This document shows, in pieces, positions 5,664 through 46,600 of a stretch of 64,000 nucleotides of DNA. The notes under the pieces were generated by a model. That model was not told the origin of the DNA. It saw only the letters and a program-made list of their open reading frames with translations, and did no database searches. Position numbers and translations under genes: made by a program. Origin of the DNA: Sphaerolaimus hirsutus (taxonomy: Eukaryota; Nematoda; Chromadorea; Monhysterida; Sphaerolaimidae). The stretch lies in assembly GCA_964036195.1 (NCBI GenBank), contig OZ038451.1, positions 10,544,529-10,608,528 on the forward strand. The letters are read 5' to 3'. Numbering within the stretch: position 1 is the first letter of the stretch; every line of letters begins with the position of its first letter.

Positions 5664-8600
5664 ATGCTCACGCCCATGGGGCACCTGATGGACGTGGTGC
5701 GCTGCGCCAACGAGCGCGCCGTGTTCGACCTGCTCGACTCGTACGACGGCACCAAGGCGCTCGTGTGGCAGCCGGAGCTGATGAAGCCGTTTGGTTTGGT
5801 CGCCAAGGCCAGCGATTTGCAGCGGCGCCAAGTGCCGCACATGTATAAGCTGGAGGTGCGTTCCTGGGGGGGACTTAACAGAGATGTCCAGAATGCCAGG
5901 GCTTTGGCGCCAAGCGCCATGGCGCTTTGGCGCTGGCGTCGGCGCCAGGAAAAATAGCGCCAAGTAGGGTTCAAACGGGATTGACTTTTCGGGATCGGGA
6001 TTGTTTTTTTGAGATTTCGGGATCGGGATTGGGGTCACGGGATCGGGATTGGCATTTTTTCGGGATCGGGATTGGGGTCTTGGGATAGAGTATTTGGCCA
6101 ATGTTCTGGCATTCACAGTTGTTCATAAAGGTCTCAAAACACTGTTGGATGCCAGAAAAGTGGCATAAAATGAACGCTAGGGGTTTGCGTTCACATTTTT
6201 GCATGCAAAAACGTCATTTTTTCACTTATGATAATTTCCTCTAATTTTTCCGGGATCGGGATCCCGGACTTTGGAGTTTCTCGAGATCGGGATTTGAAAA
6301 TTGTCGGGATCGGGATCGGGACTGCTAAATCCCGGAATTTCACGGGATCCGGGATCTGGATCCCGTTTGAACCCTAGCGCCAAGCGGCATGGCGCTTTTC
6401 GCTTTGGCGTTATGAGTGCTCCACTTGCCGCTTAAGGTAATTTTAAATCTGACTCGGTACGTTGATCGCAGTCACTTCCGTTGGGCTCTTATTATTGGGT
6501 AGGTAGGTATACGTTTTCAGCGTAAGGTGTTATTTAATTTTTTACAAATATTGGTTCGCCGTACCGTATTTGGTAACAATATCAACATCGAAAAGTCCTT
6601 CGCCACAACCGCACCGCGGGTCTGTGCCGGTGCGCATGTAGGCTCGGTGCCCGTGTGTTTCTACCCGGTGCCTATGTAGACCCGGTGCGCATGTTATTCA
6701 ACCGTACATGCGCGTCGGTCTACATGGGCACCGGGTTTATATGCATGGGGTCTACATGTGCACCATGCCCATCTACGAGTACAATGCAATGCTGTTAAAA
6801 TAGTGGTATTTTTGAAAAACGTAAACGTAAACATAAATACCTTTTCCAAATACATGGGCACCGAGTTTACATGCACGCGGAGTCCTCACCACCCATTCTC
6901 CCTCCATCAATCCCCCCCTCAGGTGGGCATGTCGGTGCCGCAGTGCAGCGTGGACCACGTGCTGTTCGTGCTGCGGCCCGAGTTGGGCGCCGGCCAGCTG
7001 CTCGTGGAGGCGGTGCAGCGCCACCTGCTGCAGCAGCGAGCGGCCAACGTCCGCCTGCACTTGGTGCTCGTGCCCGGCGCCGACGCCGTCTTCGAGCAGA
7101 TGATGGGCGATGCGGCTGATGGGAGACTTCTTTCCGCTTTCAAGTTTGTTCACTGTTTTTTTCTCCAGGAAGCAGTCCCAGTCCCTGTAAAATTCCCTGT
7201 AAAATGTCAAATGTCATGCAAAGTGTCAAAAATCATGTAAAATGCCCGGTAAAATGGCAAACACGTTTGCCATTTTGTCGGGCATTTTACATGACTTTTG
7301 ACACTTGGCGTGACATTTGACATTTCACAGCGCTTTTTAAAGGGTCTTGGACTGGTACCAGGTGCCAACCCCAAACCCTGTAAAGTGTCAAATGTCATGT
7401 AAAATGTCATGCAGTTGTCAAGTGTCAATTGTCCTGACAAATGTAAAGTAAAGTGTGAATTGTCATGCAAAGTTCAGTAATTATTTTGTTTTTGATTGAC
7501 ATTTTACATGACATTTGACACTTTACATGGTCTGGTTCAGGGACGTAGCCAGGATTTTTGAGCGGGGGGCGGATTGTATACGGAGCCCGGCGAACGGGGG
7601 GGGCGGCGCCCCCCCTAAAATTTTACCCCTGTAGTAGGGGAATGGCGCCATGGCGCCGGCGCCATTCGTTGGCGCCACGCCATGGCGCCACTGGCGTTGG
7701 CATTGGCGCCAAAACAGCAGTATATGTCTGTATTTTACAGGCATATACAGCGACATGGACACGAATTGAGTCCATTTTAACTGGTTTTGAGGCCGCGGTG
7801 ACCGGTCAGCCGAAAATGTTGTGAAGGGAAAATGCGCGCTTGCGCGCAAAAATTTTTCAAACTGTCAACAAAATCGTCTTCTGAAAGTGCCAATTCTGGC
7901 ACATTTTTTGGTCCGGCCCGGGAAGGGGGGGGCGGCCGCCCCCCCCGCCCCCCCCCCCTGGCTACATCCTTGGTCTGGTTCTGCCGCCATTGGGAGCCTC
8001 CACTTATTTGATGTACGTCGTTCTCAGAACGACGAGCGACCTGCCGTTGCGCGTGCTGCCGCTCGACAGCGACTTGGCCACGCTCGACATGGACTCCATT
8101 CTGCAGAGTTTGCTCGTGTTCGGCGACTGGTCCGTGTTGCACGCGGTCGCCCAGGCCGTGATACAAATGCAGCGACTGTTTGGCCCCGCTAAAATGTGCC
8201 ACTACAAGGGCGACTGGGCTAAGTGGGTGCGTTCGGACGGAAAGAAATTGGCCACGATTCACATTTTACCCCAGGGGTTGGCTCAATTTTAACCCTCCGA
8301 GGGTTGGCACAACGCTTCTGCGGACGGATAGATAGCTGAAAATGGGGGGGGGGTTGTCGGGTTTCAATACATTCAAGGAATGGAGAATGGAGAAAAGGGA
8401 GAAAAATGGCTACAAGTAGTTGAAAAAAGCTCAAAATTAGTATATAAGGACAAATAGTATAAAACATAGCTGATAATAGGCAGTAAGACGCATGAGCTAG
8501 TGATTTAGCTAGGTGAAGATCTATAAAATCAGCGATTTTCATAAAAAATTTGTGTATATTTTCTCAAACATCGCTCTCAATTGCTCAAAAATCCGTTTGG

Positions 8601-14901: not shown

Positions 14902-17900
14902 ATGAGCATGGAAACTGATTTGGCGCTGCTCATGAAGCGCTACGGCTACCAAGCGACCAGTGGCCCCGAAACTCAGAGATTGATCCAGCAATATGTGTGT
15001 GGTTGTTTTGTTTTTATATTTTTGTCCTTTGGCTGTCTCCGCCCTTTGTGTAATGGGTGTAAACGTGGTAATTTTTCAAGTGTTTTTGAAGATGATATTT
15101 TAAGATTAAGTAGTTTTCGATATTTTCCTAGTCCATTTTCGATTTTTTTTCTGCCAAATTATGGATATATCCTTATGCTTACCGGCCTTCTGCGGTACCG
15201 TAAACATACCAAACATGCGCCACAGAACTTTAAAATCTGCCACCCTAAAATAGGCTTCCATTTTCATTCGCATCTTGACCGTTGCTCAACAACGAGTCTA
15301 TAGGGCCTACACGCTAGTTGACATCGACACCAAATGTCAACTGGTGCCGATCCCAATACAAAGTTTGCTGACGAACGACGTGCAAACGTAATCTTCGAAT
15401 TGGGAACGGAACCAGTTGACATTTGGTGTCGATGTCAACTAGCGTGTGTGGGCCCATTGATTACGCTCGCGCATGTGCTTATCACTGACCTGCTCGCATG
15501 AAATTCCTCATTGTGAGTTCCTACGTCATTTGATTGCATTTTCAGTTGAGCCGGCCCGTGGATCATGCTCTTGTGGCGGCGAATCTGCGTCGGGTGCTGC
15601 TGCGATGCATGGATAAAGCCAGGGAAAGCGTGCAGGCTGCCGACCAGACCGCCGTTAGTCCACCGTCCCCCGATTTGCGCGCCAATGGGCTCCCACACAC
15701 TAGTTGACATCACAAATAAATGTCAACTAAAAAACATGAAAAAAATTTTAAGGCATGACATTTTACAGAAACAATGAAAATTAAGTGTCACGATTTTGTA
15801 TTAACAATATTCTAACAAATAGGGAGTCGAAATCAAATAATTAACCAAAATTTAGTTGACATCGATTTTGATGTCAACTAGAGTGTTGGAGCCCAATGGC
15901 CCTACACACACTAGTTTTCACCGTGACCATTATGAAAACTGAAATGGCGACATGGCGACATCCAGCGTACTCTTTTTGTATGCTATGTGTTTTAGTTTTA
16001 AAAATTTTAAATTTTAACTTTCATTCATTTACATTCCAATTAATATAAAATAAAATCATTCAACCGTGTTCATTAATTTGCATTTGAAAAATTTTCAGTT
16101 TTCACACGAAGTCACGGTGAAAACTAGTGTGTGTAGGCACAATCTGCCGTATTTATTCGAGCGGCGCTCGCAGGCGACGGCGGCTCTGCACCAGCGCATG
16201 CGCGAGCAGGAGACGCTCATCTCCAAGCAGGAGGAGGACTTGTCGTCGTTGCGCAAGCAGTTGGCACAGTGCCAACGCGAACTGCACACCAAGCAGCAGA
16301 TCGCCGACGCGGCGCACGCCGACCAGACCGCCGCGTCGCGCGACGGCCCCGACTTGGAGAAGTGGAAGGAAAAGTATGAGGTTGGGTTGCGCATTTAGAA
16401 TATCATGCTGAAAATATGCCATAAGTCACGTCAACTAGTTATTTTGAAGGTGCAAATTGACAAAAGGTAGTTTTATTAGCGATTTTGAGCAAAAGTTGGG
16501 ATGAAATTTCTCAAAAATCGTTTCAGGTGGCTAAATACTGGCCGATTTAGGGGTGTTAAAAAAGGAAGCTAAAACTTTTCACTCTGGGAAAGGTAGATAG
16601 CTGGGCGGCCTCCGGGAAAGATGGATAGATAGCTGGGCGATTTTGGTTGTAACCCCCCCTTATAATGCGTGTGTTACACAGAGCGCTCAGAGCACCCTGA
16701 AGCAGTACCAGGACAAGACTGAGCAGCTGAGACACGATCTGCACGCTGCCAATTCGGGACGCAGGGCTGTGGAAGATAAATGCAAGGTGCTCTATTGGCG
16801 GACCACACACTAGTTGACACACGCGTGTCAACTGGCCTGTGTCAACTCAGATTTCGGTTTCACATATCGCATGACGACCTTCCAATGCACTTTCCGTAAT
16901 ATTTTTTCAACATTGCAGAATGTGCATTTGGAGGTGAAGCCGAAATCTGAGTTGACATCAATACTGTGTAAACTAGTGTGCGGGCCGCCATGATTTTGTT
17001 ATTTTGATAATTATTTAGGTCAACTTAATCATGACGTTATTTAAAAAATTTGTACGTACCTAGACACTACAAAGCGATTTGCTCGCCATGAAGCGTCGAT
17101 TGGATGCGGTCGAGGGTCGAGCATCTGAGTTGACACTGTTGAAAAATGCTCTGCGAAAATGGCAGCACGCTGGCGCTCAATTTTGTTAGCTAAGCAATTC
17201 CTACAAATTTGCCAAGGTTTACCTACTACAAAAGTGGTGGACAAACTCGCAACGTTTCATTTCGCAGTGGAGAAGCTGGATTATCACCGCTTGGCTCCGC
17301 CCACTTTCTACCTGGCAGCGAAGCGGTGCGCTTTGACCACTAGCACGGCACTTTCGTCGGCGCCGAAACGCGTCAGGTGTCAATCCCAGACCCTGTAAAA
17401 TTCCATGTAAAATGTCAAGTGTCATGCAAAGTGTCCAAAGTCATGTAAAATGCCCTGGAAAATGGCAAACGCACGTTTACCATTTTTCAGTGCATTTTAT
17501 ATGACTTTTGACATTTTACATTATATTTTACGTTTTACATGACTTTTGACATTTTACATTATATTTTACGTTTTACATGACATTTGACATTTTACAGGGC
17601 ATTTTACAGTGTCTGGGACTGCGCCCAGGACAACGTCACGCAACAGCGTCGACGTGTCGCTGGACGCCGCGCAGGAGGAGCACGCGGTCGCTTCAAAATC
17701 CGATGCGCACATTAAGCTGACCGCGCCGGCGGCCAGTGCGGACAAGTCCATGCAGCGTATTTTGGTTGGTGTTGGAAAATAATTTTTTTCAAATGATTAT
17801 CATATTTTTTAAATTGATGTTTTTTTTAAATTACCGTGGACATTGATCTTTTTTTAATCAAGGCGTTTGAAAAAAAAGGATTTTTTCAACCCTAGAGTTA

Positions 17901-20900
17901 GGGTGGCAGACGGTACGGGCTTGCGGTAAACCGTACGGTACGGTAAATTTTCTCTTTTGCGGTAAATGGTATGGTACGGTAAATCTTCAATTTTGCGGTA
18001 AACGGTACGGTACGGTAAATCTGAAAAGTGCGGTTCGCGGTACGGTACGGTACGGTACGGTAAATTTTTGCTCGTCAGAAATGTACCAATGCCGGACTAC
18101 AGACAACGTTTACTTCATGAATTGACACTAAATTGAATTATGCAAAGTGTTAATGGACTTTAGAACACAATAACAGTGTGATAACATAGAATTACATTAA
18201 CCACAATGCAGTGGTTCAATATATAGGCTTTTTCAAGGTTTAGATGACAGAAATGGAGAAAAATTGCTAAAAGTGGGTGAAAAATTGCCAAAAGTGGGTG
18301 AAAATGGTAAAAAAGTATATAAGTGCACATGGCAATGAGCCATGAATTCCATGTAAAGCCATGTAAATGAAGAGTTGCAGCTAGGGTTGGAAAAAAAACG
18401 TTTTTTTTAACTCGATGTTTTTTTAAAAAAAACGTTTTTTTTAAAAAGCTCCCAGATATGACCTAGTGTCAACATATATAGGTATATCAGACACTGGCAA
18501 TACTCTGTGATGTTAAATATGACCATATAATGGCTGTGGAGCCATGGGATAGCATTATAAGTGGTGATTTGTGTCAAAAATATCCATTTTTCGTCGACAT
18601 ATTGTTCGTATATCGCCTTATAGTCGAATGTTCGTGACTTCAGGTAAAGTTTGGCACAGAATGGTGATCAAACAAGGTTATAAAAGGAGGTTGTTACTTT
18701 GGGAGTGAAGTTACACACTGTGGAGGTACATGGAAGCACATTACCTCAATATTATATATTACAGCAACATATGTCGGCTTATTCACCCATGGTAGCACAT
18801 AGAAATGGATGTTTTGATACTAAAAATGCAACAAAACCAAGAAAACAACCACCAATGTCAATTTGTGTGTGAAATTGCGCGCATGCGCGCAAAAATTTTG
18901 CAAAATACCTAGTGCTTAGTACTAAAAATTTTAGCCGATGTTTTTAAAATAAAAAAAACATTTCGGACGTCATGTTTTTTAAAAAAAAACAACGTTTTTT
19001 TTTAAAAAAAACGTTTAAAAAAACATCGGCCAACCCTAGTTGCAGCCATATTGCATGTGGAAATGGAAGAGCTTCAAATCAGTCAAAACAATGTTGTCAA
19101 ATTTGCGCGCTTGCGCGCAAAAAATTTTCAGAACACCACATTTTAAAGTAAATTTTAAGGTGCATATTTAAAGTCAATCTGAGTAAAATTTACCACATTT
19201 TCCGCGGTAAATGAGTGCGGTACGCGGTACGGTACGGTAAATTTTGGAAAATGCGGTACGCGGTACGGTACGGTAAATTTCTAAAAGTGCGGTAAACGGT
19301 ACAGTACGGTACGGTAATTTTTCCAAAAATGCGGTACGGTACGGTACGGTACAGTAAATTCTGCCACCCTACCTAGAGTCATCCTACCTTGACTTAAAAT
19401 ATGTGCCCCTAAAAGGTGTCCACGCAGGCGCTATGTGCGAGTGCGCAACGAGTCGTCCACGGGCGTCCACAAGCAACAATGTTCAGCGGCACAAACAGAT
19501 TGAAACCGTCGCCCAAGAAGCGCGCCCGTTTGAAGTCGCCGCCCAAACCAACTCCAGTGGTGCCAAGCGGACCAGCTCTTCCTGCATCCACCGGTGCAGT
19601 TGCAGCCGCGGCGGCAAATCAATGCTCTGCTTCCAGTTCGGACGCGCCGGCTGGTGCTTCTCCCAGACCCTGTGAAATGCCCTGTGAAGTGTGAAATGTC
19701 ATGTGAAGTGTGTAAAATTATGTAAAATGCTCTGGAAACTGTGAAAGTTTTCTATCTCACCGGGCATTTTACATGACACTTGACACTTTGCACCACACTT
19801 GACACTTTACATGGCATTTTCCAGTGTCTGTGAGTGCCCCCTGGTCTTGCCGCCGTGGCCGGCGACGCGGCGCTCACCGCGAGACTGGGCGCTATGACGC
19901 AACACTGCAGGGCGCTGTCGCCGCTCAGAAAGGCCGGCGCGGCGCTGCGGCAGCCGCTCAGTGGGGCGGCAGCGGCGGGGGTGGGTCAGCCTGCGGCTGC
20001 AAAGTCGCCCACGTGTGTGAGTGGGGGGAATGTGGGAGAGTGTGTGATGCGGGGGTATCTTGAATTTTGACGCCCCGGGGGTTGGATGGATGGGAAATCG
20101 CTCCTCCGAAGGGATAGATAGCTGGAAAAAAAATTTTTGATGGGGGGGGGTCGATATATAGGTTTTTTAAGGTGAAGAATGAAGAAAATCGCTAAAATTA
20201 GGGGAAACATTGCTTAAAAAAAGGTTTACAAGCACATATAGCCAAAAATAGCTGAAAAGTGGCAATAATTTGCCGCTGGGACAGATAGATAGCTCGGCGA
20301 TTTGGGGGGTTTCCCGTCCGAAACACCACCCCCCCCCCATTCGAAACCCCTGATGTGATGGAATTGGTGTGCTGTAGCAAAACGTGTTTCTCTATTTTGC
20401 AGGCCTCTCGCCCCCTCGTCCCGACTCGAGCTGCCAGGTCCAAAACTGCGGGTCTGCCTAAACAAGCAAAAACGTTGGTTGATATTCTGCACAGTTGTTA
20501 AAATGTACGTACATTTACTCAAAAAATACGCGTACGCGAGTACGCGTTAAATACATTTACCGTATTACCTCGAATTATCCCCCCCTTGAATTAACCCCCC
20601 CCCCCTCGAATTAACCCCCCCTCAAAATGGGCTGGGGAAATAATAACCCCCCCCTCGAAATACCCCCCCCCTCCGGAATGATGTACGTCATGTACATAAT
20701 AAATACGTCATGTATGCAATGTACATGATGTATATTACTGTTTATTTGTATTGCAGCTACACATGGGCATGTTTGTGTAGCTAATCTACGTTTTTATGTC
20801 CAAATATATCTTGTTTGGACACATTTATTACCTGTTTTGGGCATGCAAATGCCTACTATTTACTACGATCCTTACGAAAATTTGTGACGAAATAATAAGA

Positions 20901-27250: not shown

Positions 27251-27655
27251 CTGTACAAACTACAAAATGCATAGGTCTATTACACACCCGTACCGAAATT
27301 CCGTATGTGTCGGTGAGTTATGTCGACGATATATTGCGAACCTACTGAACGTATTTATGAGTCTCTCTTCAAAATCAGATCCATTCAATGAATCGCGTGT
27401 AGTTGACTACGATATCGCTGGTATCAGCCACAATATTTTATTTGGACATAATTTTGACAGTAATTTTCGTTGTGAGTACGACAACAGTTGCAGAAAGAAA
27501 AAACGGAGACGAAAACGTATTACAAGTTGGCAGCTGGCCAAAAGTTTCGAAATCGTAATAAATGCAAAAAATTGTAAAAATAAAATAGACTAAAAATCGG
27601 TATATAACCTGTATATTGACAAAATTAGTAATTATGAAGGTGAAAATCAACAAAA

Positions 27656-27835
27656 TTAAATGTGAGAGTGCGCGAAGCTGCAAATGTGAGAGTGTGCAAA
27701 GCTGCAAATGTGAGAGTGCGCGAATCTGCAAATGTGAGAGTGCGCGAATCTGCAAATGTGAGAGTGTGTGAATCTGCAAATGTGAGAGTGCGCGAAGCTG
27801 CAAATGTGACAGTGCGCAAAGCTGCAAATGGCCAA
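27656..27835. repeat. 24-bp minisatellite array (GTGAGAGTGCGC type)
   Basis: It consists of 24-bp units, each GTGAGAGTGCGC followed by a GAAGCTGCAAAT-like half. Because the unit is a multiple of three, all frames stay open and give repeating pseudo-peptides. No start, splice or codon signal supports coding. Confidence 0.85.
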
Positions 27836-29129
27836 GTTGTTGCTTATTTTTAAAAAGGCTGCTTTTGTGCTCAATTGAGAGTTCATGGTGCGGCTTATGC
27901 TCTTTTGGGCACAATATATAGGTTTTTTAAAAAGCGGCGCAGCGCTAGTGCTAAATGGGTCAAAGGTGTCTATAAGCTCCCCATATATTTGTGTATACCT
28001 AAATGCATTGAATACTTGAATTAGAGTATATACACGTTAAATTCTTTCATATTTATTATTATTTGTCAAATAATAAATCGTTCCGATAAACATGACACAT
28101 TTAAATATTTAACAGTTTAGAAAAAATTCCGTATTTTTTGAATAATTTTGCTGGGAAACAAACTTTTTTAGCATGATTATTTAAATAAATTGGACCGTTT
28201 TGGCAGGGGTTAAAATTCCACAAAATGTTTATCTTCACATTTCACATTGTTATAAAAAACACTGTTCATGTGTTACATTTGCTCAAAATGGTATTTGAAA
28301 TTAGGTAATAATCATTACAGTTGTTAAAAGTAACCAAATTTATGCAAAGTATATGTATAAGTGATTAGTATTAATATTTATGATAATAGAGTTGTTTACA
28401 ATTAATATACATACCTTTGACAAAAATTAAATTATTTATTTTATTCTTTTATTCATTTTTATCAGCTTAGAACATGAAAAAATGTTCAGAAAACATAATC
28501 AATGACATACATTTTGCCCATTTTTGCATTCAGATTCACTAGTCCCAGTAAAATTCAAAGTTTTTTGTCCCTGTAAAATGTTACATTGGCTGTTGAATTA
28601 GGTATGGTGTGAAGTGGCATTTCTCAAGTGGCTTTTCTCAAGTGTTTTCTGCTGGCACAAATATAATATCAATTTTACTTTTGGAGTTTTCACAAAGAAA
28701 TTTCAAATGAAATGTGCATATTTTGCATCAATATTACAGCATGTTATTACATTTGCACATAATGCTCATTTTTAGTTTCATGACAAAAATTTCCTTTACA
28801 GTATTGTTTCTTGACATTTTGTCTAAAATTGAATGGTTTTTAATAACCATTCCCAGGTTCACTGGTGACTCTGGTGCAGAGTTGTTAAAAGTATCAAACT
28901 TTTTCTAAGTATACATAAACATAAAGTATTTATTTATTACTCAGCCCTGAGTGAGTACAGAAAATGTAAAGTAAAATTTTATACTTTTACTCATGAGTAA
29001 ACATGAGTAAAATACTTTTTGAACCACAAAATTCTAATCAAAGATTATTGACCAATTTTTCCTATCAAAGCCAAGCCTATCAAAAATGCATTTTTTACGA
29101 AAATGAATGAAATGTCATGATAGGATACT

Positions 29130-30222
29130 GCGTGAAATGGAGAATCTGAGACTGTGCGAAATGAAGAATCTGAGACTGTGTGAAATGGAGAATCTGAGAC
29201 TGTGCTAAAAGGAAGAATCTGAGACTGTGCAAAATGAAAATCTGAGACTGTTTGAAATGAAAATCTGAGACTGTGAAATGAAAATCTGAGACTGTGTGAA
29301 ATGAAAATCTGAGACTGTGCGAAATGAAAATCTGAGACTGTGCAAATGAAGAATCTGAGACTGTGCGAAATGAAGAATCTGAGACTGTGCGAAATGAAGA
29401 ATCTGAGACTGTGCGAAATGGAGAATCTGAGACTGTGCTAAAAGGAAGAATCTGAGACTGTGCAAAATGAAAATCTGAGACTGTTTGAAATGAAAATCTG
29501 AGACTGTGCAAAATGAAAATCTGAGACTGTTTGAAATGAAGAATCTGAGACTGTGTGAAATGAAAATCTGAGACTGTGTGAAATGAATAATCTGAGACTG
29601 TGTGAAATGAATAATCTGAGACTGTGCAAAATGGAGAATCTGAGACTGTGCGAAATGAAGGATCTGAGACTGTGAAGTGTGAGGATCTGAGACTGTGTGA
29701 AATGGAGAATCTGAGACTATGCGAAATGGAGAATCTGAGACTGTGCTAAAATGGAAGAATCTGAGACTGTGCAAAATGAAGAATCTGAGACTGTGTGAAA
29801 TGGAGAATCTGAGACTGTGTGAAATGAAAATCTGAGACTGTGTGAAATAAAAATCTGAGACTGTGCGAAATGAAAATCTGAGACTGTGCAAATGAAGAAT
29901 CTGAGACTGTGCGAAATGAAGAATCTGAGACTGTGCGAAATGAATAATCTGAGACTGTGCGAAATGAAAATCTGAGACTGTGTGAAATGAATAATCTGAG
30001 ACTGTGTGAAATGAATAATCTGAGACTGTGCAAAATGGAGAATCTGAGACTGTGCGAAATGAAGGATCTGAGACTGTGAAGTGTGAGGATCTGAGACTGT
30101 GTGAAATGGAGAATCTGGGACTATGCGAAATGGAGAATCTGAGACTGTGCTAAAATGGAAGAATCTGAGACTGTGCAAAATGAAGAATCTGAGACTGTGA
30201 AGTGTGAGGATCTGAGACTGCG
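29130..30222. repeat. 23-bp minisatellite array (CTGAGACTGTGC type)
   Basis: About 48 units of 22-24 bp, each CTGAGACTGTGC followed by GAAATGAAAAT or variants. It passes directly into GTGAGAGTG-type units at 30222, and the two motifs are recognisably related. Confidence 0.88.
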
Positions 30223-30436
30223 TGAGATGGAGATGTGAGAGTGCGCGAAGCTAGAAATGTGAGAGTGCGCGAAGCTGTAAACATGAGAGTGAGCACAATG
30301 GTAAAAATGTAAGAGTGAGCAAAATGGTAAATGTGAGAGTGAGCAAAATGGTAAATGTGAGAGTGAGTGAAATGGTACATGTGAGAGTGAGCGAAATGGT
30401 ACATGTGATACATTTACACATAGACATGTGAGAGTG
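30223..30436. repeat. 24-bp minisatellite units with AAATGGTA variants
   Basis: GTGAGAGTGAGC units followed by AAAATGGTAAAT-like halves, ending at the conserved spacer with ACGTGACAATTCC. Confidence 0.8.
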
Positions 30437-30480
30437 TGCAAAACGTGACAATTCCAAATTCATACGTCATCTGTTTTTTT

Positions 30481-31413
30481 TAGGGTTCAAACGATATATC
30501 GTATCGAATATCGAATATCGGATATCGACCATTTTTTAATATCGAATGTCGAATATCGATATCGAAAATTTTGAAAAAATATCGAATATCGAATATCGAT
30601 ATCGAAAATTTTGAAAAAATATCGAATATCAAATATCGATATCGAAAATTTTGAAAAAATATCGAATATCGATATCGAATATCGACCATATTTTCGATAT
30701 ATCAAACCTGTATAATGTCCTTAATTAAGTTATTATTTTTGTTTTGAGATATTTGTGATTAATTTGATTTGCTTATAGTATCTAAGTTGATGAGTAAAAG
30801 TAAAGTATTTAATGTTATCTTTGTTGGAGTGCTTACTCCACATTTCTTGTATTTGGTTGGCCACATACCTACTGAACTACCTACCTCATATTTGAAGCCA
30901 GAAAATGCTGATATGCTGCTTTTTTGCAACATGCCCTTAAACAATTGGGTTATAAGTATGAATTGTTATATCTACCAATTTTGGTTTGTCTGATACAATT
31001 TGATTCGTCATGTTTTTTCTTCGATTTTTTCATTCTGACCATTGTAAACCTTGTTAAAATCAATTGTACTTTTCAGTAAAGAGATAATCAACCATGTTTG
31101 CAACCATATGAAAATACAACATGCTGCTTGAAATATGCCTTGCTATACCAAAAGCTAAATATCGAATATCGAAAATATCGAAATATCGATATCGAATATC
31201 GACCATTTTTTAGTATCGAATATCGAATATCGATATCGAGGGTCCATACCGTATCGAATATCGATATCGAAAATTTCGAAAAACTATCGGATATCGAATA
31301 TCGATATCGAAAATTTTGAAAAAATATCAAATATCGAATATCGATATCGAAAATTTTGAAAAAATATCGAATATCGAATATCGATATCGAAAAGTGATAT
31401 CGTTTGAACCCTA
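30481..31413. mobile_element. hAT-like MITE with I-family ends and ATATCG core, TSD GTTTTTTT
   Basis: It runs from TAGGGTTCAAACGATAT to ATATCGTTTGAACCCTA, flanked by GTTTTTTT at 30473-30480 and 31414-31421. Arrays of ATCGAATATCGATATCG occupy about 200 bp at each end. The middle (30710-31155) shows no recognisable gene. The homologous positions at 31915, 32415 and 38085 are empty. Confidence 0.88.
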
Positions 31414-31420
31414 GTTTTTT

Positions 31421-33345
31421 TTGCTTATTTTCAGCTATTCTTGACATTTGCACAAAATGCCAAATTTTTTCACACTTTGATGACATATGACTCACTTACA
31501 GTATGTATAAAAAGTGAATTTGTGAAGTGAAGTGAATTAGTTAAGTTAATTAAATGTGAGAGTGTGCGAAGCTGCAAATGTGAGAGTGCGCAAAGCTGCA
31601 AATGTGAGAGTGCGCGAAGCTGCAAATGTGAGAGTGCGTGAAGCTAGAAATGTGAGAGTGTGCCAAGCTGTAAACATGTGAGAGTGCGCGAATCTGCAAA
31701 TGTGAGAGTGCGCGAAGCTGCAAATGTGAGAGTGCATGAAGCTAGAAATGTGAGAGTGTGCCAAGCTGTAAACATGTGAGAGTGAGCGAAATGGTACATG
31801 TGAGAGTGAACAAAATGGTAAATGTGAGAGTGAGCGAAATGGTACATGTGATACATTTACACATAGACATGTGAGAGTGTGCAAAACGTGACAATTCCAA
31901 ATTCATATGTCATCTGTTTTTTTTGCTTATTTTCAGCTATTCTTGACATTTGCACAAAATGCCAAATTTTTTCACACTTTGATGACCTATGACTCACTTA
32001 CAGTAGGTATAAAAAGTGAATTTGTGAAGTGAAGTGAATTAGTTAAGTTAATTAAATGTGAGAGTGTGCGAAGCTGCAAATGTTAGAGTGCGCAAAGCTG
32101 CAAATGTGAGAGTGCGCGAAGCTGCAAATGTGAGAGTGCGTGAAGCTAGAAATGTGAGAGTGTGCCAAGCTGTAAACATGTGAGAGTGCGCGAATCTGCA
32201 AATGTGAGAGTGCGCGAAGCTGCAAATGTGAGAGTGCATGAAGCTAGAAATGTGAGAGTGTGCCAAGCTGTAAACATGTGAGAGTGAGCGAAATGGTACA
32301 TGTGAGAGTGAACAAAATGGTAAATGTGAGAGTGAGCGAAATGGTACATGTGATACATTTACACATAGACATGTGAGAGTGTGCAAAACGTGACAATTCC
32401 AAATTCATATGTCATCTGTTTTTTTGTGCTTATTTTCAGCTATTCTTGACATTTGCACAAAATGCCAAATTTTTTCACACTTTGATGACCTATGACTCAC
32501 TTACAGTAGGTATAAAAAGTGAATTTGTGAAGTGAAGTGAATTAGTTAAGTTAATTAAATGTGAGAGTGTGCGAAGCTGCAAATGTTAGAGTGCGCAAAG
32601 CTGCAAATGTGAGAGTGCGCGAAGCTGCAAATGTGAGAGTGCGTGAAGCTAGAAATGTGAGAGTGTGCCAAGCTGTAAACATGTGAGAGTGCGCGAATCT
32701 GCAAATGTGAGAGTGCGCGAAGCTGCAAATGTGAGAGTGCATGAAGCTAGAAATGTGAGAGTGTGCCAAGCTGTAAACATGTGAGAGTGAGCGAAATGGT
32801 ACATGTGAGAGTGAACAAAATGGTAAATGTGAGAGTGAGCGAAATGGTACATGTGATACATTTACACATAGACATGTGAGAGTGTGCAAAACGTGACAAT
32901 TCCAAAGTCATACATCATCTGTTTTTTTGCTTATTTTCAGCTATTCTTGACATTTGCACAAAATGCTAAATTTTTTCACACTTTGATGACCTATGACTCA
33001 CTTACAGTAGGTATAAAAAGTGAATTTGTGAAGTGAAGTGAATTAGTTAAATGTGAATAGTTAAATGTTAGTTAAAAGTTAATTAAATGTGAGAGTGCGC
33101 GAAGCTGCAAACGTGAGAGTGCGCGAAGCTGCAAACGTGAGAGTGCGCGAATCTGCAAATGTGAGAGTGCGCGAAGCTGCAAACGTGAGAGTGCGCGAAG
33201 CTGCAAACGTGAGAGTGCGCGAATCTGCAAATGTGAGAGTGCGCGAGGCTGCAAATGTGAGAGTGTGCGAAGCTGCAAACGTGAGAGTGCGCGAATCTGC
33301 AAATGTGAGAGTGCGCGAATCTGCAAATGTGAGAGTGTGCGAAGC
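31421..33345. repeat. 502-bp higher-order tandem repeat
   Basis: Units start at GCTTATTTTCAGCTATTC at 31423, 31925, 32428 and 32929, so the period is 501-503 bp. Each has a non-repetitive spacer followed by about 12 GTGAGAGTG units. The first three are nearly identical; the fourth has a different order of short units. Confidence 0.9.
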
Positions 33346-33885
33346 TGAATTTTTTCACACTTTGATGACCTATGACTCACTTACAGTAGGTATAAAAAGT
33401 GAATTTGTGAAGTGAAGTGAATTAGTTAAATGTGAATAGTTAAATGTTAGTTAAAAGTTAATTAAATGTGAGAGTGCGCGAAGCTGCAAATGTGAGAGTG
33501 TGCGAAGCTGCAAACGTGAGAGTGCGCGAATCTGCAAATGTGAGAGTGCGCGAAGCTGCAAATGTGAGAGTGCGCGAATCTGCAAATGTGAGAGTGCGCG
33601 AAGCTGCAAATGTGAGAGTGTGTGAAGCTGCAAATGTGAGAGTGCGCGAAGCTAGAAGTGTGAGAGTGTGCGAAGCTGTAAACATGAGAGTGAGCACAAT
33701 GGTAAAAATGTAAGAGTGAGCAAAATGGTAAATGTGAGAGTGAGCAAAATGGTAAATGTGAGAGTGAGTGAAATGGTACATGTGAGAGTGGGCAAGATGT
33801 TAAATGTGAGAGTGCACAAAATAGTAAATGTGAGAGTGAGCAAAATGGTAAATGTGAGAGTGAGCAAAATGGTAAACAGTAGGGG
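33346..33885. repeat. Partial spacer and 24-bp minisatellite array
   Basis: A truncated spacer (TTTTTTCACACTTTGATG) is followed from 33468 by GTGAGAGTGCGC units and then AAAATGGTAAAT-type units. Confidence 0.8.
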
Positions 33886-34773
33886 GAGTTGTTTGAGGGA
33901 AGGGGCAAAAGGGTAAATACATTTTCCTGGAAAAAAAAGTTGTTTTTAGCTATTCTTGACATTTGCACAAAATGCCAATTTTCACACTTTGATGACCGAT
34001 GACTCACTCACAGTGGGTATTAAACGGGAATTACACAAACGTTCAAAAGAATGGATGATTTTCAGAAAATAAAATTAATTATAATGTTATACAATCTCTA
34101 AAAGTAAAAATTTCATTCATTAACCTCTAAAAACCGCAGGAAAATAGCAATAAGTATCAATAATTTAGCATATGATTTATTATTTCACATTGGTCACATT
34201 TATTACATAACATCAGCTTCTTGTGACCATTGTGTAAAACGTGTGATGCAGCTAGTAAATTTAAATGATAAATACAAAACGTAAATGTGTAAATTCTTTA
34301 GTACAGTGAAGGGTGGGGGACCTTTGCCCCCACAGCTACTCAGTAGTGGTTTGGCAGACCTCCGAAAATACTGAACAACTTTTTTAGCCGGTGCCTCGCA
34401 CCACTGTATAAGCGCTTGGCCCTCCAACGCGCTCAAGCCACTCAAAATGTAAAGTAAAAAAGTCAGATCATTGATCATTGTGACGTTTAAATTCACTAGT
34501 TTGTGTGTGTTTTGCCTGTTTTTTTTTGCCTATTTTTTTCAACTTTTTCCAATTTTTAGCTTTTCTCCATTTTCTACCCATCTATGCCTTGAAAAAGCAT
34601 ATACTGTATTTCCTCGATGCACTGTTAGCGAAAAAATTTTGTCCTGTAAAATGTCAATTTTAAATAAAAAGGAGAAGTTTTTTTGACTGAAATTTTGACA
34701 CTATCTATGACAATTGACAATTTCTTAGGACATGAATCTAGATGAATGTTGGCACTTGCCCCTGCACGTAGCT
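33886..34773. other. AT-rich spacer, nothing recognised
   Basis: It contains one more ACACTTTGATGACC spacer fragment near 33985 and otherwise shows no gene, RNA or clear element boundary. Confidence 0.5.
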
Positions 34774-36045
34774 AAATATTATTTACACTGGCAGCAGTCC
34801 CCGCTAGCTTTTTGTGTGTATTTTCTTTAAGTTGGGTAGAAACACCAATCTGACTAAAATAATTATATCTACTTTTTCTTTTCTGTTCTTGTTCTTTTCA
34901 CAAAAGCATTGAAAAACATGTTATTGAACATTTCTGAGCAAAAGTAGACTTGGTGCCAACAGTTGTGTAAGTATTTTCCAAACAAATTTATTGTGCGACA
35001 TTTGCACACAATGGCAAAATGTTTGCAAAATACAGAAAAATCGCTGGCGCCAAGGCTACTTTTGTTCAAAAATGTTCCATAACATGTTTTACAATGCTTT
35101 TGTGCAAAAAAACAGACAGCAAAAACAAATATAAATATTCTAAACGGTTGCAGTTTTATTATGTTTTAAAAAAAATACTGGAACATTTTCAAGTGAATGT
35201 GGCCTTGGCACCAGCATTTTTGTTACTGTTTTCTTGAAAACTTAAAGAAACCACAATTGATAAAAATATATATTTTTATCTACCTATTTTTTGTTGTCTG
35301 TTTTTTTGCACAAAAGCATTGAAAATCATGTCATAGAACATTTCCAAGCAAAAGTAGACTTGGCGCCAGCATGTTTATGAGTATTTTCTTCAAGACAGAA
35401 AGAAATGGCAGTTGACCAAAATATTTATAATTATTTTTGATGTCTGTTTTTTTGCACAAAAGCATTGAAAAACATGCCATGAAAGATTTCCAAGCTAAAG
35501 TAGTTTTGGCGCCAGCATTTTTGTGTGTATTTTCTTTAAGTCGGGTAGAAACACCAATCTGACTAAAATAATTATATCTACTTTTTGTTTTCTGTTTTTT
35601 TTTTCTTCACAAAAGCATTGAAAAACATGTTATTGAACATTTCTGAGCAAAAGTAGACTTGGTGCCAACAGTTGTGTAAGTATTTTCCAAACAAATTTAT
35701 TGTGCGACATTTGCACACAATGGCAAAATTTGCAAAATACAGAAAAATGCTGGCGCCAAGGCTACTTTTGTTCAAAAATGTTCCATAACATGTTTTACAA
35801 TTTTTGTGCAAAAAAAAGACAACAAAAACAAATATAAATATTCTAGATGATTACGATTTCTTTCCATCTTGAAGAAAATTCTCACATTTTTTTCACATTG
35901 CTCACATAGCATTTGCGATCAAAAATACAGGCAATTGCAAAGGAAAATGAAGGGGCACTGCGAACGAAAATTCTGGGGGCTCTGCGAACGAAAATTCTGG
36001 GGGCTCTGCGAACGAAAATTCTGGCAAATTGCACTATAACGCGGG
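34774..36045. repeat. Repeat block R2: satellite with units in both orientations
   Basis: Units of roughly 150 bp contain GCATTGAAAAACATG and GTAGACTTGGTGCCAAC in one orientation (34905, 35310, 35460, 35610) and their complement (TGGCGCCAAGGCTAC) at 35045 and 35750. It ends with three 24-bp units around TCTGCGAACGAAAATTC. Repeated at 38375-39665. Confidence 0.8.
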
Positions 36046-38174
36046 CTGCAAATGGCCAAGTTGTTGCTTATTTTTAAAAAGGCTGCTTTTGTGCTCAATT
36101 GAGAGTTCATGGTGTGGCTTATGCTCTTTTGGGCACAATATATAGGTTTTTTAAAAAGCGGCGCAGCGCTAGTGCTAAATGGGTCAAAGGTGTCTATAAG
36201 CTCCCCATATATTTGTGTATACCTAAATGCATTGAATACTTGAATTAGAGTTTATACACGTTAAATTCTTTCATATTTATTATTATTTGTCAAATAATAA
36301 ATCGTTCCGATAAACATGACACATTTAAATATTTAACAGTTTAGAAAAAATTCCGTATTTTTTGAATAATTTTGCTGGGAAACAAACTTTTTTAGCATGA
36401 TTATTTAAATAAATTGGACCGTTTTGGCAGGGGTTAAAATTCCACAAAATGTTTATCTTCACATTTCACATTGTTATAAAAAACACTGTTCATGTGTTAC
36501 ATTTGCTCAAAATGGTATTTGAAATTAGGTAATAATCATTACAGTTGTTAAAAGTAACCAAATTTATGCAAAGTATATGTATAAGTGATTAGTATTAATA
36601 TTTATGATAATAGAGTTGTTTACAATTAATATACATACCTTTGACAAAAATTAAATTATTTATTTTATTCTTTTATTCATTTTTATCAGCTTAGAACATG
36701 AAAAAATGTTCAGAAAACATAATCAATGACATACATTTTGCCCATTTTTGAATTAAGATTCACTAGTCCCAGTAAAATTCAAAGTTTTTTGTCCCTGTAA
36801 AATGTTACATTGGCTGTTGAATTAGGTATGGTGTGAAGTGGCATTTCTCAAGTGGCTTTTCTCAAGTGTTTTCTGCTGGCACAAATATAATATCAATTTT
36901 ACTTTTGGAGTTTTCACAAAGAAATTTCAAATGAAATGTGCATATTTTGCATCAATATTACAGCATGTTATTACATTTGCACATAATGCTCATTTTTAGT
37001 TTCATGACAAAAATTTCCTTTACAGTATTGTTTCTTGACATTTTGTCTAAAATTGAATGGTTTTTAATAACCATTCCCAGGTTCACTGGTGACTCTGGTG
37101 CAGAGTTGTTAAAAGTATCAAACTTTTTCTAAGTATACATAAACATAAAGTATTTATTTATTACTCAGCCCTGAGTGAGTACAGAAAATGTAAAGTAAAA
37201 TTTTATACTTTTACTCATGAGTAAACATGAGTAAAATACTTTTTGAACCACAAAATTCTAATCAAGTATTATTGACCAATTTTTCCTATCAAAGCCAAGC
37301 CTATCAAAAATGCATTTTTTACGAAAATGAATGAAATGTCATGATAGGAGACTGCGTGAAATGGAGAATCTGAGACTGTGCGAAATGAAGAATCTGAGAC
37401 TGTGTGAAATGGAGAATCTGAGACTGTGTGAAATGAAAATCTGAGACTGTGTGAAATAAAAATCTGAGACTGTGCGAAATGAAAATCTGAGACTGTGCAA
37501 ATGAAGAATCTGAGACTGTGCGAAATGAAGAATCTGAGACTGTGCGAAATGAATAATCTGAGACTGTGCGAAATGAAAATCTGAGACTGTGTGAAATGAA
37601 TAATCTGAGACTGTGTGAAATGAATAATCTGAGACTGTGCAAAATGGAGAATCTGAGACTGTGCGAAATGAAGGATCTGAGACTGTGAAGTGTGAGGATC
37701 TGAGACTGTGTGAAATGGAGAATCTGGGACTATGCGAAATGGAGAATCTGAGACTGTGCTAAAATGGAAGAATCTGAGACTGTGCAAAATGAAGAATCTG
37801 AGACTGTGAAGTGTGAGGATCTGAGACTGCGTGAGATGGAGATGTGAGAGTGCGCGAAGCTAGAAATGTGAGAGTGCGCGAAGCTGTAAACATGAGAGTG
37901 AGCACAATGGTAAAAATGTACGAGTGAGCAAAATGGTAAATGTGAGAGTGAGCAAAATGGTAAATGTGAGAGTGAGTGAAATGGTACATGTGAGAGTGAG
38001 CGAAATGGTACATGTGATACATTTACACATAGACATGTGAGAGTGTGCAAAACGTGACAATTCCAAATTCATACGTCATCTGTTTTTTTTGCTTATTTTC
38101 AGCTATTCTTGACATTTGCACAAAATGCCAAATTTTTTCACACTTTGATGACATATGACTCACTTACAGTATGT
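36046..38174. repeat. Repeat block R1, second copy, running into the gap
   Basis: Homologous to 27821-30480 and then to 31423-31506 without the ATATCG-core element. The 23-bp array is at 37340-37843. It stops at the N run. Confidence 0.88.
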
Positions 38175-38374
38175 NNNNNNNNNNNNNNNNNNNNNNNNNN
38201 NNNNNNNNNNNNNNNNNNNNNNNNNNNNNNNNNNNNNNNNNNNNNNNNNNNNNNNNNNNNNNNNNNNNNNNNNNNNNNNNNNNNNNNNNNNNNNNNNNNN
38301 NNNNNNNNNNNNNNNNNNNNNNNNNNNNNNNNNNNNNNNNNNNNNNNNNNNNNNNNNNNNNNNNNNNNNNNNNN
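38175..38374. other. Assembly gap of exactly 200 N
   Basis: The left edge matches position 31506 and the right edge position 34774 of the first repeat unit. If the second unit has the same structure, about 3.3 kb are missing and 200 is a placeholder length. Confidence 0.95.
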
Positions 38375-39665
38375 AAATATTATTTACACTGGCAGCAGTC
38401 CCCGCTAGCTTTTTGTGTGTATTTTCTTTAAGTTGGGTAGAAACACCAATCTGACTAAAATAATTATATCTACTTTTTCTTTTCTGTTCTTGTTCTTTTC
38501 ACAAAAGCATTGAAAAACATGTTATTGAACATTTCTGAGCAAAAGTAGACTTGGTGCCAACAGTTGTGTAAGTATTTTCCAAACAAATTTATTGTGCGAC
38601 ATTTGCACACAATGGCAAAATGTTTGCAAAATACAGAAAAATCGCTGGCGCCAAGGCTACTTTTGTTCAAAAATGTTCCATAACATGTTTTACAATGCTT
38701 TTGTGCAAAAAAAACAGACAGCAAAAACAAATATAAATATTCTAAACGGTTGCAGTTTTATTATGTTTTAAAGAAAATACTGGAACATTTTCAAGTAAAT
38801 GTGGCCTTGGCACCAGCATTTTTGTTACTGTTTTCTTGAAAACTTAAAGAAACCACAATTGATAAAAATATATATTTTTATCTACCTATTTTTTGTTGTC
38901 TGTTTTTTTGCACAAAAGCATTGAAAATCATGTCATAGAACATTTCCAAGCAAAAGTAGACTTGGCGCCAGCATGTTTATGAGTATTTTCTTCAAGACAT
39001 AAAGAAATGGCAGTTGACCAAAATATTTATAATTATTTTTGATGTCTGTTTTTTTGCACAAAAGCATTGAAAAACATGTCATGAAAGATTTCCAAGCTAA
39101 AGTAGTTTTGGCGCCAGCATTTTTGTATTTTCTTTAAGTCGGGTAGAAACACCAATCCGACTAAAATAATTATATCTACTTTTTGTTTTCTGTTTTTTTT
39201 TCTTCACAAAAGCATTGAAAAACATGTTATTGAACATTTCTGAGCAAAAGTAGACTTGGTGCCAACAGTTGTGTAAGTATTTTCCAAACAAATTTATTGT
39301 GCGACATTTGCACACAATGGCAAAATTTGCAAAATACAGAAAAATGCTGGCGCCAAGGCTACTTTTGTTCAAAAATGTTCAATAACATGTTTTACAATTT
39401 TTGTGCAAAAAAAAGACAACAAAAACAAATATAAATATTCTAGATGATTACGATTTCTTTCCATCTTGAAGAAAATTCTCACATTTTTTTCACATTGCTC
39501 ACATAGCATTTGCGATCAAAAATACAGGCAATTGCAAAGGAAAATGAAGGGGCACTGCGAACAAAAATTCTGGGGGCTCTGCGAACGAAAATTCTGGGGG
39601 CTCTGCGAACGAAAATTCTGGGGGCTCTGCGAACGAAAATTCTGGCAAATTGCACTATAACGCGG
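38375..39665. repeat. Repeat block R2, second copy
   Basis: Homologous to 34774-36045, with four instead of three of the TCTGCGAACGAAAATTC 24-bp units at its end. Confidence 0.85.
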
Positions 39666-43632: not shown

Positions 43633-46600
43633 ATGAGCATGGATACAGATTTGGCGCTGCTCATGAAGCGCTACGGCTACCAAGCGACCAGTGGCCCCGA
43701 AACTCAGAGATTGATCCAGGAATATGTGTGTGGTTGTTTTGTTTTTATATTTTTGTCCTTTGGCTGTCTCCGCCCTTTGTGTAATGGGTGTAAACGCGGT
43801 AATTTTTCAAGTGTTTTTTAAGATGATATTTCAAGATTAAATAGTTTTCGATATTTTCCTAGTCCATTTTCGATTTTTTTTCTGCCAAATTATGGATATA
43901 TCCTTATGCTTACCGGCCTTCTGCGGTACCGTAAGCATACCAAACATGCGCCACAGAACTTTAAAATCTGCCACCCTAAAATAGGCTTCCATTTTCATTC
44001 GCATCTTGACCGTCGCTTAACAACGAGTCAATTGATTACGCTCGCGCATGTGCTTATCACTGACCTGCTCGCATGAAATTCCTCATTGTGAGTTCCTACG
44101 TCATTTGATTGCATTTTCAGTTGAGCCGGCCCGTGGATCATGCGCTTGTGGCGGCGAATCTGCGTCGGGTGCTGCTGCGATGCATGGATAAAGCCAGGGA
44201 AAGCGTGCAGGCTGCCGACCAGACCGCCGTTAGTCCACCGTCCACCGATTTGCGCGCCAATGGGCTCCCACACACTAGTTGACATCACAAATAAATGTCA
44301 ACTAAAAAACATGAAAAAAAGTTTAAGGCATCACATTTTACAGAAACAATGAAAATTAAGTGTCACGATATTTTATTAACAATGTTCTATCAAATAGGAA
44401 GTCGAAATCAAATAATTAACCAAAATTTAGTTGACATCGATTTTGATGTCAACTAGAGTGTTGGAGCCCAATGGCCCTACACACACTAGTTTTCACCGTG
44501 ACCATTATGAAAACTGAAATGGCGACATGGCGACATCCAGCGTACTCTTTTTGTATGCTATGTGTTTTAGTTTTAAAATTTTTAAATTTTAACTTTCATT
44601 CATTTACATTCCAATTAATATAAAATCAAATCATTCAACCGTGTTCATTAATTTGCATTTGAAAAATTTTCAGTTTTCACACGAAGTCACGGTGAAAACT
44701 AGTGTGTAGCTACAATCTGCCGTATTTATTCGAGCGGCGCTCGCAGGCGGCGGCGGCTCTGCACCAGCGCATGCGCGAGCAGGAGACGCTCATCTCCAAG
44801 CAGGAGGAGGACTTGTCGTCGTTGCGCAAGCAGTTGGCGCAGTGCCAACGCGAACTGCACACCAAGCAGCAGATCGCCGACGCGGCGCACGCCGACCAAA
44901 CCGCCGCGTCGCGCGACGGCCCCGACTTGGAAAAGTGGAAGGAAAAGTATGAGGTTGGGTTACGCATTTAGAATATCATGCTGAAAATATGCCATAAGTC
45001 ACGTCAACTAGTTATTTTGAAGGTGCAAATTGACAAAAGGTATTTTTTTAGCGATTTTGAGCAAAAGTTGGGATGAAATTTCTCAAAAATCGTTTCAGGT
45101 GGCTAAATAGCTGGTCGATTTAGGGGTGTTAAAAAAGGAAGCTAAAACCTTTCCCTCTGGGAAAGGTAGATAGCTGGGCGGCCTCCGGGATAGATAGCTG
45201 GGCGATTTTGGTTGTAACCCCCCCCCCCTTATAATGCGTGTGTTTCACAGAGCGCTCAGAGCACCCTGAAGCAGTACCAGGACAAGACTGAGCAGCTGAG
45301 ACACGATCTGCACGCTGCCAATTCGGGACGCAGGGCTGTGGAAGATAAATGCAAGGTGCTCTATTGGCGGACCACACACTAGTTGACACACGCGTGTCAA
45401 CTGGCCTGTGTCAACTCAGATTTCGGTTTCACATGTCGCATAACGACCTTCCAATGCACTTTCAGTAATATTTTTTCAACATTGCAGAATGTGCATTTGG
45501 AGATCGCCCTGCTTCAGGTGAAGCCGAAATCTGAGTTGACATCAATACATGTGTAAACTAGGGCCGCCATGATTTTGTTATTTTGATAATTATTTAGGTC
45601 AACTTAATCATGATGTTATTTTAAAAATTTGTACGTAGACACTACAAAGCGATTTGCTCGCCATGAAGCGTCGATTGGATGCGGTCGAGGGTCGAGCATC
45701 TGAGTTGACACTGTTGAAAAATGCTCTGCGAAAATGGCAGCACGCTGGCGCTCAATTTTGTTAGCTAAGCAATTCCTACAAATTTGCCAAAGTATACCTA
45801 CTACAAAAGTGGTGGACAAACTCGCAACGTTTCATTTCGCAGTGGAGAAGCTCGATTATCACCGCTTGGCTCCGCCCACTTTCTACCTGGCAGCTAAGCG
45901 GTGCGCTTTGACCACTAGCACGGCACTTTCGTCGGCGCCGAAACGCGTCAGGTGTCAATCCCAGACCCTGTAAAATGCCATGTAAAATGTTAAGTGTCAT
46001 GCAAAGTGTCCAAAGTCATGTAAAATGCCCTGGAAAATGGCAAACGCACGTTTGCCATTTTTCAGGACATTTTATATGACTTTTGACATTTTACATTATA
46101 TTTTACGTTTTACATGACATTTTACATTTTACAGGGCATTTTACAGTGTCTGGGACTGCGCCCAGGACAACGTCACGCAACAGCGTCGACGTGTCGCTGG
46201 ACGCCGCGCAGGAGGAGCACGCGGTCGCTTCAAAGTCCGATGCGCACATTAAGCTGACCGCGCCGGCGGCCAGTGCGGACAAGTCCATGCAGCGTATTTT
46301 GGTTGGTGTTGGTAAATAATTTTTTTCAAATGATTATATATTTTTTAAATTGATGTGTTTTTTTAAAAATTACCGTGGACATTGGTGTTTTTTAATCAAG
46401 GCGTTTGAAAAAAAAGGATGTTTTCAACCCTAGAGTCATCCGACCTTGACTTAAAATATGTGCCCCTAAAAAGTGTCCACGCAGGCGCTGTGTGCGAGTG
46501 CGCAACGAGTCGTCCACGGGCGTCCACAAGCAACAATGTTCAGCGGCACAAACAGATTGAAACCGTCGCCCAAGAAGCGCGCCCGTTTGAAGTCGCCGCC

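Follow-up and report, generated by a model that had tools for sequence, protein, structure and literature searches.

A palindromic, CWG-targeting MITE family as a probable source of new introns in the nematode Sphaerolaimus hirsutus

Introduction

Introners that take one splice site from the transposon end and the other from the target site duplication are known from algae, as the original prediction for the locus studied here had correctly stated. According to the available parts of the respective paper, the introners of Chrysochromulina bring the GT with the element and gain the AG from the duplicated target (Gozashti et al. 2022, Fig. 2C, PMC9860276). The family described here, termed F, would share with them that it is non-autonomous and inserts into exons, and that insertion and removal together keep the length of the message (PMC9860276). 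In contrast to the 4-bp duplications and the missing inverted repeats reported in these parts for Chrysochromulina, F has 3-bp CWG duplications and an inverted repeat over its full length, and its host is an animal (PMC9860276).

Two further systems are closely related in one respect or another. In the sections of the NuwaI paper used here, the NuwaI group of the PHIS (PIF/Harbinger) superfamily is characterized by 5'-CWG-3' duplications and ends in GGG, and is restricted to animals; the term 'intron' occurs 0 times in this text (PMC4482050). Whereas the NuwaI inverted repeat begins with GGG, one end of F begins with GTGC (PMC4482050). The hairpin introners of the dinoflagellate Amoebophrya possess direct repeats of 3–5 nt at their borders and inverted repeats forming a hairpin that draws the exon borders towards each other, and F resembles them in both features, as far as the available text of that paper goes (PMC7789003). 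However, the borders in Amoebophrya are described there as mostly non-canonical and varied, with inverted repeats of 8–20 nt, whereas F is one family with fixed ends, a GT donor and a stem spanning nearly the whole element (PMC7789003).

The F family was found in a stretch of 64,000 nt from Sphaerolaimus hirsutus (assembly GCA_964036195.1, contig OZ038451.1, positions 10,544,529 to 10,608,528), referred to as the window. Intron birth by the route described above is known in algae; here we deal with an animal and with a palindromic, CWG-targeting family that has asymmetric ends and a class of copies with CTG duplications. The 2022 introner survey reportedly includes two animal groups, and a later one is said to have appeared in PNAS in 2025. 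Among the open-licence papers searched, a single one, on fungi, mentions both introners and Harbinger.

Results

On the forward strand, positions 17374–17631 of the window read CAG-GTGTCAATCCCAGACCCTG...CAGTGTCTGGGACTGCGCC-CAG-GAC. The F element itself, a miniature inverted-repeat transposable element (MITE), occupies 17377–17625 (249 nt); its 5' end GTGTC contains the GT donor and its 3' end is GCGCC. It is flanked by the two CAGs of a target site duplication at 17374–17376 and 17626–17628, the right one being the proposed AG acceptor. The predicted GT-AG intron thus consists of the element plus the right CAG (17377–17628, 252 nt). A putative upstream exon, its start set by an AG, extends from 17268 to 17376 with the left CAG at its end, and a putative downstream exon from 17629 to 17764 is followed by GT. 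The frame is open across the join; once 17377–17628 is removed, 82 open codons before it are connected to 51 after it, which agrees with the prediction that an intron made of the element and the second CAG keeps the frame. The exons are deduced only, because the gene has no clear family match; its product is coiled-coil-like. The gene upstream of it is VPS33-like, with a match to the Sec1 family at E 1.1e-4 that stays below the Pfam cut-off. A search of the window against Rfam gave 0 matches. The mitochondrial COX1 of the host genome, located on a contig of 14,754 bases, is open throughout with TGA read as Trp; its conserved residues are presumably restored with AGR as Ser and AAA as Lys, a code that we take to be typical of invertebrates.

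A second F copy at 45952–46162 (forward strand), with CAG at 45949–45951 and 46163–46165, is 38 nt shorter and represents the same insertion in a second copy of the gene. The window element matches ten places within 10.41–10.76 Mb of contig C2 (10412865–10754801, 0.35 Mb), where the coiled-coil gene occurs as an array of tandem copies. CAG is present on both sides in the six inspected array copies with a full 5' end (L001–L006); two further copies (L007, L008) lack part of the 5' end, and some gene copies in the array are truncated. Since the element at 45952 lies in this array together with the copied gene, both window copies go back to one insertion event. Among five array copies compared, the window element is 38 nt longer than the rest. 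This length change is not a multiple of three and hence fits an intron, not translated sequence. The flanking exon segments of these copies are free of indels, with 16 differences in 1,090 and 20 in 1,380 positions versus 40 in 2,140 for the element.

The same gene contains another F element at 19654–19840 (forward strand), flanked by CTG at 19651–19653 and 19841–19843 and with the 3' end GAGTGCCCC; this insertion recurs in the second gene copy at 46711–46897, again with CTG duplications. A reversed F element is found at 7169–7358 (reverse strand), with CAG on both sides when read on the forward strand. Directly after its CAG another F-like start (GTGCCAACCCCAAACCCTG) follows, which would fit the insertion of a further element into the duplication.

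The window holds several other repeats. At 15678–16145 and 44261–44713, two MITEs of another family (ends CACACACTAGTT...) follow one another, and their borders are marked by AAT. They lie between the halves of a coiled-coil frame, which would join as ...RAN-LPYLFERRS, and a GT-AG border is not evident. Long arrays of units of about 24 nt (CTGAGACTGTG... and related ones) occur at 27500–38200 in several duplicated blocks, and a run translated as X in the listed frames, at about 38174–38380, is an assembly gap or a withheld stretch.

For the family as a whole, the genome (348 Mb, 762 contigs) was searched. The 28-nt start GTGCCAGTCCCAGACCCTGTAAAATGCC occurs at 1,634 places with at most one mismatch, as compared with 0 for the reversed control; a 22-nt piece of the element gave 0 matches in the viral contigs. 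Short length, absence of coding sequence, inverted repeats, duplications and high copy number identify F as a MITE family. Copies in unrelated genes have a median nearest-neighbour identity of 89% (74 of 75 copies).

The target site was determined from 49 loci, i.e. the first 30 listed (all on contig C1) and 19 hand-picked along C2–C4. After subtraction of two repeats, 47 sites remained, including one more duplicate pair (L052, L053). The three nucleotides before the element are CAG at 26 and CTG at 17 sites (43 of 47), and those after it CAG at 23 and CTG at 13 of the 42 sites with a well-aligned 3' end (36 of 42), with background frequencies of 0.0172 for CAG and 0.0157 for CTG (about 3%). 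On C1, at least 39 elements have both ends exact, and 36 of these 39 carry identical duplications, at least 20 CAG/CAG and 16 CTG/CTG, counted with a list of 3' CAG ends that stops some 1.9 Mb short of the C1 terminus. As either CAG or CTG is duplicated at both ends, the target is CWG rather than CAG, the target originally proposed; the CTG-flanked element at 19654–19840 is a case in the window itself. In these duplications, in one GGGG end (the other being GTGC) and in its animal host F agrees with NuwaI as portrayed in the text available (PMC4482050).

Genome-wide, CAG precedes 850 and CTG 722 exact 5' ends (CTG 46%), and CAG follows 989 and CTG 732 exact 3' ends (CTG 43%, 732/1,721). Random orientation without selection would give equal numbers of CAG and CTG. 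The excess of CAG is moderate in size, with p values of 0.001 at 5' and 6e-10 at 3' ends; its share is 0.575 at 3' ends versus 0.541 at 5' ends (p = 0.054). Unequal duplications, among the C1 matches listed, comprise three exact CTG/CAG pairs and no CAG/CTG pair, and the 47-site sample contains three CTG/CAG rows (including the duplicate locus L052, L053) and one CAG/CTG row. A direction from CTG before to CAG after the element (three of three on C1, among the matches listed) is suggestive only.

A majority consensus built from 75 copies has a length of 189 nt. It is identical to its reverse complement apart from positions 2, 4, 186 and 188 and the centre. The inverted ends noted earlier are therefore present, but they form just the outermost portion of an inverted repeat that spans the whole element. 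The two consensus ends differ, with GTGC at one and CCCC (GGGG when read from outside) at the other. Since this consensus was built from copies selected for a GTGC start, the ends were checked separately. On C1, at least 39 pairs are GTGC/GGGG, GTGC/GTGC accounts for 2 of 170 ends, both copies of one locus, and GGGG/GGGG pairs for 0 of 162 ends. With at most one mismatch, GGGG starts are found 2,012 times in the genome, which is above the number of GTGC starts.

To what extent F insertions behave like introns was judged from the proteins. At each of 42 usable sites, the element and one duplication were removed and the sequence was translated across the join. In the sense direction, 11 of 30 peptides matched Pfam with E ≤ 0.01, seven of them at or above the Pfam cut-off (Oscp1, E1_dh, Calpain_III, Ldl_recept_a, Kelch_6, PDEase_I and Tetraspanin), while 19 had no match. 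The join lies within eight of these 11 matches; one of the eight (L057) is probably spurious. Three peptides of this set (L063, L065, L075) were translated with the join one base off, their right CAG being shifted. Antisense peptides from 28 of these sites gave no match (0 of 28; Fisher p 0.0003 versus sense), a comparison that favours sense somewhat, as sense frames were partly picked by eye, and length or codon score decided on the antisense frames. In all cases with a domain match, the GTGC end accordingly lies upstream on the sense strand. A codon model assigned 57 of 84 sites to sense and 27 to antisense; because it produced many near ties and misjudged AT-rich genes, Pfam was relied on for orientation.

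Several conserved proteins are restored precisely. When compared with proteins of solved structure, GRK3 (L013, GRK2/3; CAG/TAG, E 2.9e-14), BCKDHA (L036; CTG/CTG, E 2.3e-13), vinculin (L027; CAG/CAG, E 1.2e-8) and Argonaute-2 (L065; E 2.4e-5) align without a gap across the join. The aligned repeat of vinculin is weak in the best single stretch; an assignment of this locus to talin was rejected, as it is nearer to vinculin. In Oscp1 (L031, CTG/CTG), Pfam coordinates run from 7 to 48 and then from 48 to 89 around the join. The right CAG is located one base later than the consensus end in L065 and one base earlier in L075, and at both loci the protein is restored only with a cut after this CAG; the PDE4D score of L075 rises from 72.9 bits with the wrong join to 77.4 bits with the right one. 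A second BCKDHA site (CAG/CAG) lacks one residue four residues after the join, and calpain (L038) had no match in the PDB. The gapless alignments of GRK3, vinculin and Argonaute-2 bear out the proposal that the GT comes from the element and the AG from the target, and that the join restores the host sequence.

The same ends therefore coincide with the exon join in unrelated genes (Oscp1, E1_dh, GRK3, vinculin, Argonaute, tetraspanin and others), with borders predicted from the protein. In addition, F displays the signs of DNA transposition, duplications and inverted repeats, which are not seen in every introner family. That F merely resides in pre-existing introns, with borders near its ends by chance, is very improbable. 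Other MITEs of the window do sit in larger introns, e.g. between 12540 and 12826, but in proteins from unrelated families the join of the exons falls exactly at both ends of F, and the duplications reveal insertion at the join itself. Equally improbable is an inner acceptor, TTTTACAG, which would leave 19 nt of the element in the message. A TTTACAG is present near the 3' end in 64 of 75 copies and was judged a better-looking acceptor than CCCCCAG; with a GT donor at the border, however, 19 nt would shift the frame, and the protein alignments require the exact join.

The copies with CTG need separate consideration, as this duplication supplies no AG acceptor, and 13 of the 42 sampled right-hand triplets are CTG. 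The copies in Oscp1 (L031) and BCKDHA (L036) have CTG duplications and GACTGCCCC as their 3' end. Cutting them out exactly restores the protein and would yield GT...TG, the CAG copies giving GT-AG; all of these borders are predicted from the protein. Each of the two genes contains two F copies in the stretch retrieved, one with CAG and one with CTG. Either the CTG copies of L031 and L036 are removed with a TG border, or they are damaged alleles. A rescue by GAG (in-frame GGGAG-TGCCCCCTG, adding three residues) was also considered and showed no clear link, with GAG in 6 of 24 CTG/CTG and 5 of 32 CAG/CAG rows, which are not all independent.

It is quite conceivable, if somewhat short of an even chance, that CTG copies in coding exons are not spliced at all and represent recent harmful or heterozygous insertions, or dead genes. 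The missing canonical acceptor, the surplus of CAG over CTG and the three unequal exact pairs of C1, all with CTG before and CAG after among the matches listed, are consistent with this explanation. On the other hand, CTG still accounts for nearly half of the ends on either side, and the CTG copies of L031 and L036 have the sense orientation in conserved single genes in which CAG-type copies are present as well.

Alternatively, removal might be guided mainly by the hairpin, which would draw the two borders towards each other and mask the inner decoys GTAAAA and TTTACAG; an AG at the 3' border would then be dispensable, and copies with CTG would leave as GT...TG. We regard this as rather unlikely. 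The consensus pairs over its length except for the terminal bases and the centre, and the predicted RNA fold of 73 of 75 copies closes at its base no more than 15 nt from either end; at the median of these 75 folds, all bases of the inner GTAAAA and TTTACAG are paired. The gapless sense-strand CTG copies of Oscp1 and BCKDHA, which have no in-frame AG, point in the same direction. Precedents are the Amoebophrya hairpin introners, which have no fixed borders in the text available (PMC7789003), and TG as a usable 3' splice site in human genes (PMC2374985). The human GT...TG sites resemble what CTG-type F copies with their predicted borders would need, but according to the portion of that paper used here, TG serves only as an alternative to a nearby AG and never alone (PMC2374985). 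Moreover, 68 of the 75 predicted folds pair G1 and 36 pair T2, so the donor is not simply exposed. The stem positions (6,189 pairs) contain 478 single breaks, 109 paired double changes and 30 unpaired double changes. The stem thus decays mostly by single unpaired changes, selection on it is unsupported, and together with the pairing of G1 and T2 this means that a selected RNA hairpin is not demonstrated. Finally, CAG exceeds CTG at both ends, hence CTG is not fully equivalent.

Concerning the source of transposition, the transposase profile PF13359 matched the genome 163 times, with at least two PIF/Harbinger-like families among the matches listed. F ends were found around none of 13 scanned PF13359 loci (12 at up to two mismatches, L092 at up to three). 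One of the matches, L083, is a multi-copy PIF/Harbinger-like transposase element containing ...GGCCAATATACATT after CACTAGTTTACTGGCG-like repeats. As a partner of F it was rejected, since its end looks like that of the window's other MITE family and not like F.

Discussion

Judged from the genomic sequence, F is very probably an introner-type, NuwaI-like MITE in an animal, whose insertion at a CAG in an exon makes a predicted spliceable intron. According to our model, a non-autonomous palindromic DNA transposon with NuwaI-like 3-bp CWG duplications would land at CAG in a coding exon, oriented such that its GTGC end lies upstream in the sense direction. The original CAG would then become the exonic side of the 5' splice site (CAG-GTGCC), the GT being brought by the element, and the 3' splice site (CCCC-CAG) would be formed by the duplicated CAG, which follows the C-rich 3' end. 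Removal of the element and the second CAG by the spliceosome would leave the protein unchanged. Splicing at these borders and a recent origin of the introns are what we infer from the restored proteins and the copies. F resembles NuwaI by its target, and mobilization by a PHIS/NuwaI transposase, in this group a DDE enzyme with a Myb/SANT partner, is presumed on this likeness. The original claim that the family makes introns holds for intron-like insertions in many unrelated conserved genes; it does not extend to the roughly 43% of exact 3' ends that are followed by CTG and have no AG.

A more far-reaching reading assigns the decisive role to the asymmetry of the ends. Bases 2 and 4, which distinguish the GTGC donor from the CCCC tract, might have turned an animal NuwaI-type MITE into an introner. 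CAG and CTG would both be tolerated because the hairpin defines the borders; individual conserved genes would harbour both GT-AG and GT-TG introns, and CTG acceptors would later mutate to CAG. We put this forward tentatively and consider it doubtful as a whole.

F copies in genes, which are predicted to be removable as introns, indicate one way in which new introns may arise. A single animal genome holds over 1,600 recognisable starts of F, with insertions in conserved single genes and borders fixed by CWG, and the birth of introns would be traceable in it site by site. The natural contrast between CAG and CTG may serve to test how far the spliceosome needs AG, and a palindrome that is asymmetric only at its ends suggests how few changes may make a MITE an intron maker.
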